Of a stretch of 64,000 nucleotides of DNA, positions 60,820 through 63,643 are shown one piece after another. Source of the DNA: Panopea generosa (lineage: Eukaryota > Mollusca > Bivalvia > Adapedonta > Hiatellidae); assembly GCA_029582155.1 (NCBI GenBank), contig CM055899.1, positions 85,897,056-85,961,055 of the forward strand. Reading direction: 5' to 3'. The position numbers and the translations under genes were made by a program. The notes under the pieces were generated by a model, which saw nothing but the letters and a program-made list of their open reading frames with translations, was not told where the DNA came from and did no database searches. Positions within the stretch are counted from its first letter, which is position 1. Each line of letters opens with the position of its first letter.

Positions 60820-60983
60820 TTACATGGTTTTGCAGTCCTTTACAAAGTTGACGTTTCGAAATTTCGTCCTGATAAAAACTTCCATTATTGCCGTCATCTT
60901 GCAATGTTTCCTCTTCTTCTCAAGCAGTCGCACGCAATTCTTCATCTTCCGGTTCAATCGTGATTTGAACTTCTTATAATTCC
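60820..60983 (-). CDS. Exon 3 (terminal, basic) of the three-exon secreted protein
   Basis: Starts after a strong tttttccag acceptor and completes Arg113. Runs 53 further residues to TAA at 60820, ending NFVKDCKTM. Confidence 0.65.
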
Positions 60984-63643
60984 CTGGAAAAAGACGTAAT
61001 AGATACACTACAAAAACGGTAATACAGCTTCACGGAATATGTTCCATGGTACATATAGAAAATAATAGTCTCGGTCACCTTTCATGCATACATTTCTAAA
61101 AGACAAAGAATGATGTCTCGTTGTTAATCGTCCCTCACCACTGATGCAAGTGGATCGAAAGTTTTCAATTATTTGCAGAGAGTGTGCTTGTTAACCCCAA
61201 GTATCCTAGGAAAGAGAGGTTAGGTTAACTGAGCGTCTGTTAGCCCTCGATGGCATAAACTAACGTTTTAACGTTCAAACAATTAAACTAATTTCAAGGA
61301 AACTTTTTTCCAGTTGTATTTACAAAACCCAATTAATTCAGATAATATTTGTAATTTTATAATCATAAGATTTTATCTTTTAAAAGTGTCTCACCAAATG
61401 TATTTAACAATATCGAAAATAATTACCTATATAAAAATGCAATTCGAAAAAATATTATAAAAGACCGAATTGCCGCTATGCTTTCTTTTGTCATAATGGA
61501 ATAAATATTATATATTAATAAAAGGAATGTCACAACCCTATCTTCGAGATTCAATTCATTAAAGTACATACATGAAATTCATTCCGTAAACTTAAGATCC
61601 ACTTCAGATATATCCCATAGCCAAACTGTGAATAATTGTCATAATCACAATATGTAATTTTGAATTTCATTCCTGATTGTATTAAACAATCGGTCAGTCA
61701 AACAGTTTAAACGCAAATATCTGCAATGTAGCAGACCATAGACTACTAGTCATATATGCACATAATGCTATTCTATATAGTCTTTAAAAATCAGTATGCT
61801 TGATGTTCATTTGTTAATTAATGTTAAACACTGTTCTTATTTAAGATTGTTGTTGAGGACCTCAGTGAAGATTGAACTTAGTCAAGCTGAGTTTTCTCGT
61901 AAAATAAAGTGGTTATTATCATTAGTATTTGTTGTCGTTGTCGTCGTAGTTGCAGTAGCAGTAGAAGTAGTAGTAGTAGTAGTAGTAGTAGTAGTAGTAG
62001 TAGTAGTAGTAGTAGTAGTAGTAGTAGTAGTAGTAGTAGTAGTAGTAGTAGTAGTAGTAGTAGTAGTAGTAGTAGTAGTAGTAGTAGTAGTAGTAGTAGT
62101 AGTAGTAGTAGTAGTGGCATTAGCAGTAGCAGTAACAGTAGCCGTAGTAGTAGAAGTAGTAGAAGTAGTAGTAGATGTAGTAGTAGAGTAGTTGTAGTAT
62201 TAGTATTAGTATTAGTATTAGTATTAGTTTTGTAGTAGTAGAAGAGTAGTAGTAATAGTAGTAGTAGCAGTAGTAGTAGCAGTAGCAGTAGCAGTAGCAG
62301 TTGCAGTAGTAGTAGTAGTAGTAGTAGTAGTAGTAGTAGTAGTAGTAGTAGTAGTAGCAGTAGTAGTAGTAGTTGTAGTAATAGTAGTAGTAGTAGTAGT
62401 AGTAGTGAAAGTAGTAGAAGTCGTAGTAGTAGTAGTAGTAGTAGTAGTAGTAGTAGTAGTAGTAGTAGTAGTAGTAGTAGTAGAAGAAGTCGTAGAAGTC
62501 ATAGTAGTAGTAGTAGTAGTAGTAGTAGTAGTAGTAGTAGTAGTAGTAGTAGTAGTAGTAGTAGAAGTAGTAGTAGTAGTAGTAGTAGTAGTAGTAGTAG
62601 TAGTAGTAGTAGTATTAACACGAATTTGGTCACTCACGTCTTGAACACCCTCCAAGTATGTGGTCTCGGTTGACTTGTTTCCGGAAGTCCACTGCGGGTA
62701 TATCCTGCTTTGTCATTTTTGATATAAATGTTCCGTTGTTGGCTGAAATATGCATATATGACTTTTATTATCTAATTATTTAGGTAAATGCAATCGATTA
62801 TGTTATGTTTACTAGAAACGCGGGCCTTTATTTCACATTTATCACTAATACGAATCTAGCATAAAGGCACCAGTAATACCACCATTGGAAACAGGAGATA
62901 TTCTGTAGGGTAGTCACATCATGGCAGTTATAAATAATTATTGTTTCTTCTTTTTTTCAAAATGCATTTTCCTTATTGCTTGTTTTTTTTTAAAGAAGGT
63001 GCATTTTTTTAAAAAAAAGAAGTCCCCAATTACTCATAAATACATGCATATGTTTAAATCCTATAAAAAGTCGCTTTTTAATACCAGTGGTGTCCTATTG
63101 CAGTATATGCTATGCCAACTTTTGCTCTACTCATTTGCAGCAAGAAATCACAACTAATATGGACCATTTTGAAAATATTTCAAAACCAAATTACATGGGA
63201 CTTTTTTTTAAGCGTAAGAATCATGATACCGTGGAGGAAAAGGAGCGTAACTGAGGCAGTAGATGGCTGAAAGGCGGTGCATTATTCCGTGTATTTGTGA
63301 ACTTTGAAACAAAATAAAAGTAATTGTCAATATGTCTCTTATACGCTATTCTTATTATTAGAAGTAAAAATTGAATGTGTACTGACCTTTGACGATCTTC
63401 CAAGAAAATACCTCTACTTTTCCTGTCCTCAAAACATCAAACGCAATATAAACGTGTGTGTTGTTTTTGTGTCTATAGACAAGTCTGTCCGAACGGTCGG
63501 TCATGCACAACCCGTCGAGAATATGGATACCGGACGGTGGGGGTGCCGCAGCCCCACCCATGATATACGTGACCATCAGGATTAGTGAACAGCCACTCAG
63601 GATCGTAACACGAACCATTCTTCTGTATAATCAATGGCTCGAC
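60820..63643 (-). CDS. Three-exon gene for a small secreted, basic, cysteine-containing protein (unrecognised)
   Basis: Assembled from splice signals. CDS exons: 63618-63387, 62742-62638 and 60983-60820 (232+105+164 nt), giving 166 residues. Both introns are phase 1 and all four junctions fit: acceptor tatttcag before 63643, donor gtcagt after 63387, acceptor tttcag before 62742, donor gtgagt after 62638, acceptor tttttccag before 60983. Residues 1-25 (VTILSGCSLILMVTYIMGG) look like a signal peptide ending in AAA/PPP. The mature part has five Cys (38, 110, 129, 140, 163), N-glycosylation sequons at about N52 and N80, and a strongly basic C-terminal third (NYKKFKSRLNRKMKNC). No family is recognised; a secreted ligand or antimicrobial-type protein is only a guess. 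Intron 2 is filled by a TAG triplet array. A 5'UTR exon probably lies further upstream. Confidence 0.65.
60984..61944. other. Intron 2, non-repetitive part
   Basis: Presumed intron of the secreted-protein gene on minus. AT-rich, with no other feature seen. Confidence 0.45.
61945..62617. repeat. TAG (CTA on minus) triplet array in intron 2
   Basis: About 670 bp of TAG/AGT triplets with AGA, AGC and ATT interruptions, ending 20 bp from the exon 2 donor. Low-complexity open frames (poly V, L, S or T) are artefacts. Confidence 0.97.
62638..62742 (-). CDS. Exon 2 of the three-exon secreted protein
   Basis: 105-nt exon, phase 1 at both ends, coding ANNGTFISKMTKQDIPAVDF and on to LGGCSR. It is bounded by cag on one side and gtgagt on the other. 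Two frames are fully open across the exon, but only this one keeps phase with exons 1 and 3. Confidence 0.62.
62743..63386. other. Intron 1 of the secreted-protein gene
   Basis: 644-bp intron by the assembled model. AT-rich, with a poly-T patch near 62945-63010 and no other feature. Confidence 0.55.
63387..63643 (-). CDS. Exon 1 (signal peptide) of the three-exon secreted protein
   Basis: The ATG at 63618 lies 25 nt inside an exon that starts after an acceptor at 63644. Codes residues 1-77 and ends after the first base of codon 78. The alternative frame through the acceptor (VEPLIIQKNGSCYDPEW) stops before the donor and is rejected. Confidence 0.65.

Follow-up and report, generated by a model that had tools for sequence, protein, structure and literature searches.

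A probable three-exon gene for a small, basic, putatively secreted protein and its paralogue on the same chromosome

On the minus strand of the analysed stretch of DNA (64,000 nucleotides; hereafter the window), three short open segments join via two phase-1 GT-AG introns into a single reading frame (Table 1). An earlier note had proposed a 166-residue product from these three segments, joined exactly in phase 1 at 63386/62743 and 62637/60984; recomputing the join gave 166 residues with both introns in phase 1, and each named pair of positions marks the outermost bases of one intron. The donor of intron 1, AAG/GTCAGT, agrees with the consensus at eight of nine positions and that of intron 2, GAC/GTGAGT, at seven of nine, scores held by 28 and 232 GT sites, respectively, across both strands of the window. 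The corresponding acceptors are TATTTCAG and TTTTTCCAG, and the second of these, at 60983, has a polypyrimidine tract of 12/15, the better among the acceptors examined. An in-frame stop lies five codons upstream of the exon 1 ATG, and a non-coding exon may be present further upstream. The stop-to-stop frames around exons 1, 2 and 3 span only 90, 44 and 69 amino acids, so that an open reading frame scan with a 100-amino-acid cut-off would miss the gene, as expected from the previous assertion that no single open frame reveals it. The accompanying statement that the gene is hidden by a huge triplet repeat was overstated: the repeat is a (GTA)n microsatellite of intron 2, and it is a plain open reading frame scan that would miss the gene. 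As the array lies wholly within that intron, it has no role in the protein. Beyond the stop codon, positions 60600-60680 of the window (minus strand) have, by eye, the look of a tRNA-derived SINE with a B-box-like GGTTCGATATTCC, and may belong to the 3' untranslated region. No tRNA was detected at 60600-60680 by ARAGORN, and tRNA and Rfam scans of the whole window were empty.

Table 1. Coordinates of the window gene (window numbering) and of its paralogue (C6, the same chromosome).
Feature	Position	Strand	Remarks
Possible 5' untranslated stretch	63619..63643	-	preceded by acceptor-like TTATATTTCAG
Coding exon 1, 232 nt	63387..63618	-	ATG at 63618; predicted leader and start of mature protein; N52 sequon, C38
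Intron 1, phase 1, GT-AG	62743..63386	-	
Coding exon 2, 105 nt, phase 1 to phase 1	62638..62742	-	contains C110
Intron 2, phase 1, GT-AG	60984..62637	-	
(GTA)n microsatellite, 224 copies of 3 nt	61946..62614	.	wholly within intron 2
Coding exon 3, 161 nt	60823..60983	-	basic C-terminal part; C129, C140, C163
Stop codon TAA	60820..60822	-	
Possible polyadenylation signal	60484..60489	-	first AATAAA 3' of the stop
Paralogue gene, three exons	C6:32594725-32590266	-	both introns phase 1
Paralogue exon 1	ATG 32594725; phase-1 donor 32594439 or 32594430	-	
Paralogue exon 2	C6:32591257-32591156	-	phase-1 donor; 3.2 kb downstream, same strand
Paralogue exon 3	C6:32590405 to stop ending 32590266	-	

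The predicted protein opens with a putative leader that has the hydrophobic core LILMVTYIM and contains C10, and cleavage would be plausible after residue 21, 23 or 24, as judged by the simple -3,-1 rule rather than by SignalP. Counting cysteines in the remainder gave C38, C110, C129, C140 and C163, the five mature cysteines previously reported, and the description of the C-terminus as basic held as well, exon 3 encoding a basic C-terminal part of a mature protein with a pI of 10.4. Crude secondary-structure propensities were too weak for use.

We searched the joined protein against its own genome (1,474,161,289 bases in 39 contigs; 1.47 Gb) and obtained four matches, comprising its own three exons and one match elsewhere. 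The latter (C6:32594420-32594575, minus strand; E 1.7e-9) lies 53 Mb away on the same chromosome and falls in a second gene of three exons, which encodes a product of 175 or 178 residues depending on which of two donors is used. For both introns, position and phase 1 match between the window gene and this paralogue. The reverse search with the paralogue, at E <= 10, returned five matches. Three were the exons of the paralogue itself and one was exon 1 of the window gene; the fifth, on contig C14, with an E of 1.94 and two stops, was taken as chance. No further copy was found within the window, where the best other match had an E of 0.19. The genome search scores only the best candidates, and two copies is the count at that sensitivity.

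The paralogue resembles the window protein in having three coding exons, a putative hydrophobic leader that likewise satisfies the -3,-1 rule, a conserved core, a shared sequon, five mature cysteines and a basic character (mature pI 9.6), and differs in its longer N-terminal part after the leader and its shorter exon 3. The two proteins match with an E of 4e-21 in BLASTP and, as mature sequences, at 98.3% (E 1.5e-14) in hhalign, their overall identity in a MAFFT alignment being 34%. Exon 1 is 46% identical to its counterpart over residues 33-84, and none of 5000 shuffles scored as well against the paralogue either for exon 1 or for exon 2 (0/5000 in each case); on these comparisons, exons 1 and 2 of the two genes are clearly homologous. 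The 67 codons aligned between the genes in exons 1 and 2 show 28 mismatches at the first codon position, 16 at the second and 47 at the third, and of the 30 identical residues, 19 are encoded by different codons in the two genes. This is the pattern expected of coding genes whose proteins selection has preserved. The core conserved between these two paralogues of one genome is encoded by exons 1 and 2 and reads C-x-DRLVYR-x2-N-x-TH-x2-I-x-FDVL-x2-G ... SWK ... IP-x-V-x2-RK ... DH, within which the N-x-T sequon N52 of the window protein aligns with N70 of the paralogue.

Exon 3 is less well conserved. On its own it scored no better against the paralogue's exon 3 than chance would allow, 1027 of 5000 shuffles being as good. 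The paralogue's exon 3 ranks first among 78 phase-1 acceptor-to-stop candidates in 16,156 bases (score 7, the next -6) and is the sole one of the 78 with the cysteine spacing looked for, a ranking carried out after the exon had first been chosen by eye. MAFFT aligns three of the mature cysteines (C38, C129 and C163), while a fourth shared cysteine, C140, finds its partner only when exon 3 is aligned globally. C110 is private to the window protein, with no matching cysteine in the paralogue, which in turn has an extra cysteine of its own in exon 3. Both tails end alike, in F-x-K-x-C, and dibasic pairs lie at the exon 2/3 junction of both proteins (RR 112-113 in the window protein, KR 129-130 in the paralogue), each of which is K/R-rich overall.

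The same chromosome carries a second gene with its exons laid out in the same way, which makes it very probable that the three segments are exons of one gene for a small secreted protein. Such segments are short, and AT-rich DNA is rich in splice-like sites, with 260 donors in the window scoring at least 7 when both strands are counted, so open frames and splice-like sites could in principle have lined up by chance where there is no gene. The paralogue, with the same exon order and phases and a protein that is conserved while third codon positions have diverged, makes this extremely improbable. We also ran a chain search, using thresholds chosen after the gene had been seen, for an ATG-leader exon, an internal exon and a last exon, all in phase 1 and with good splice sites. 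On the minus strand of the window this yielded two chains, identical except that one takes 60983 and the other 61007 as its last acceptor. Neither the plus strand nor any of 40 sequences simulated from the window by a first-order Markov model contained such a chain; as the thresholds were set with knowledge of the gene, we give this search less weight than the paralogue. That the second acceptor, 61007, also produces a legal chain bears on a different reading, in which the gene is real and the model incomplete or partly wrong, with another last exon or with additional exons, coding or alternative. The comparison with the paralogue is at its weakest in exon 3, and the acceptor-like site that closely precedes exon 1 may signal another exon upstream. 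Against these points, acceptor 60983 has the better polypyrimidine tract and gives a tail that ends like that of the paralogue, the paralogue's matching exon 3 tops its 78 candidates, and a stop in frame precedes the ATG. We regard an error of this kind in the model as quite unlikely, and consider it highly probable that the locus holds a real, intact gene, one of the two copies found, whose product is a small basic protein, predicted to be secreted, with a mass near 17 kDa once its leader is removed.

Searches for known relatives gave no credible family for either copy. Pfam returned no family for the two proteins at E <= 10 (subject to the HMMER filters), the best of the NCBIfam results was a single match below the cut-off (E 0.075), and the best matches among PDB sequences, a ribosomal protein, CREB and a prenyl synthase (E 1.1, 0.24 and 0.36), were all implausible. 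Pattern searches gave 44 matches in viral contigs, none confirmed by tblastn, and 46 in prokaryote genomes, again with none confirmed. Among the papers listed in searches for a description of such a family, none could be tied to it by title or opening of the abstract. The earlier note's proposal of a three-exon secreted-protein gene without a recognisable family is thus supported, with the paralogue of the same exon layout as independent support for the gene and the Pfam, NCBIfam and PDB searches bearing on the family.

It is also conceivable that the protein belongs to a known family of secreted proteins, such as FGF or the NTR (netrin-like) C-terminal module, and has diverged so far that sequence profiles miss it. 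FGF genes commonly have three coding exons, the middle one short, and FGF shares with the window protein the form of a small secreted basic protein. By eye, 'THVYIAFDVL..GKVEV' recalls an FGF strand pair, and the likeness to NTR is a loose one to a single short motif, 'DHILGG' beside the NTR 'YLIxG'. Neither FGF (PF00167) nor NTR (PF01759) was matched in Pfam, however, and searches of the genome for FGF and NTR led to four and two other places, respectively, and to neither copy; the genome's own FGF-like loci thus sit elsewhere, and its own NTR pieces carry a CxCP motif that is absent from the window protein. In hhalign comparisons of low power, made with two-sequence profiles, 13 of 60 column shuffles did as well against two partial FGF pieces from the same genome, and 27 of 60 did as well against the NTR pieces. 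We therefore judge membership of such a family to be unlikely. BRICHOS, cystatin, IL-17, TIMP and chemokine-like proteins were also thought of, and Pfam scans gave no match. Orphan secreted proteins are common in molluscs. Many mollusc shell proteins are familiar for their low-complexity repeats, which the window protein is without. In being small, predicted to be secreted and free of any library domain, it resembles the lineage-restricted secreted proteins of mollusc mantle secretomes (PMC1676022 and PMC4897951).

We take the two genes to be an ordinary two-copy orphan family of what are probably small secreted glycoproteins, where orphan is meant relative to the libraries searched. The product would enter the secretory pathway and act outside the cell, with N-glycosylation likely at the conserved N52 and disulphides predicted to hold the protein together. 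Exons 1 and 2 would encode the conserved core, and exon 3 a fast-evolving basic tail that has kept its last cysteine. The dibasic pair at the exon 2/3 junction is a possible processing site that could separate core from tail. The mature cysteines number five in each copy; with an odd total, one may be free for a partner, which makes a disulphide-linked dimer a reasonable guess. Our leading guess as to function is an extracellular ligand or effector whose tail might bind acidic glycans, and a ligand, an immune effector or a matrix protein would each fit the same evidence. More boldly, the pair could be the founders of a family, so far undescribed, that is confined to bivalves or spread more widely in molluscs. 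Its members would be secreted signalling proteins linked by disulphides and folded in a way of their own, with a glycosylated conserved core from exons 1 and 2 and a basic tail from exon 3 that proteolysis can release; we put this forward tentatively and consider it doubtful.

The preferred reading, an orphan pair of small secreted-protein genes, shows how raw sequence can yield a gene that is divided among three short exons and escapes both open reading frame scans and domain libraries, and how a paralogue with the same exon structure serves to confirm it. A wide distribution of the family among bivalves, if borne out, would give that group, already rich in such proteins, a further uncharacterised extracellular factor. 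For the present, the result is a sound piece of annotation whose general interest is modest, since it amounts to one more orphan secreted family.

Other features of the window include an open frame at 31925-32626 (minus strand) with a BTB_2 (KCTD-type) domain (Pfam E 2e-25), and another at 37604-38497 (minus strand) that encodes a hydrophobic C-terminus in addition to a starch-binding CBM_20 domain (E 2.8e-12). A single frame of 416 amino acids at 51445-52695 (minus strand) has a leader-like start and an Exo_endo_phos domain (E 1e-10); its product would be, at a guess, a secreted nuclease or an enzyme of the sphingomyelinase type. Tandem arrays are unusually dense, with 127 Tandem Repeats Finder rows for the window, and include those at 3760-5461, 11288-11656, 14145-16239, 40443-42012, 42010-48677 and 56415-58152, among others; one array has a 37-bp unit in about 180 copies, and several give long open frames purely by repetition. 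Elsewhere in the genome, at C15:56112183-56112208, there is an xPGWamide neuropeptide precursor with seven xPGW-GK units, the first residues of which are A, R, R, K, K, T and S. As to other markers of the organism, a COX1 search returned no match, and one for mollusc haemocyanin also returned none but is uninformative, its control having given no signal anywhere. According to PMC5996578, APGWamide is the only form in gastropods and cephalopods, whereas the first residue varies in the precursors of bivalves, and SPGWamide occurs in the scallop as well. The varied first residues of the seven units point to a precursor of the bivalve type, in support of the mollusc origin implied by the earlier note's proposal to search mollusc proteomes, and the genome is thus most likely that of a bivalve.
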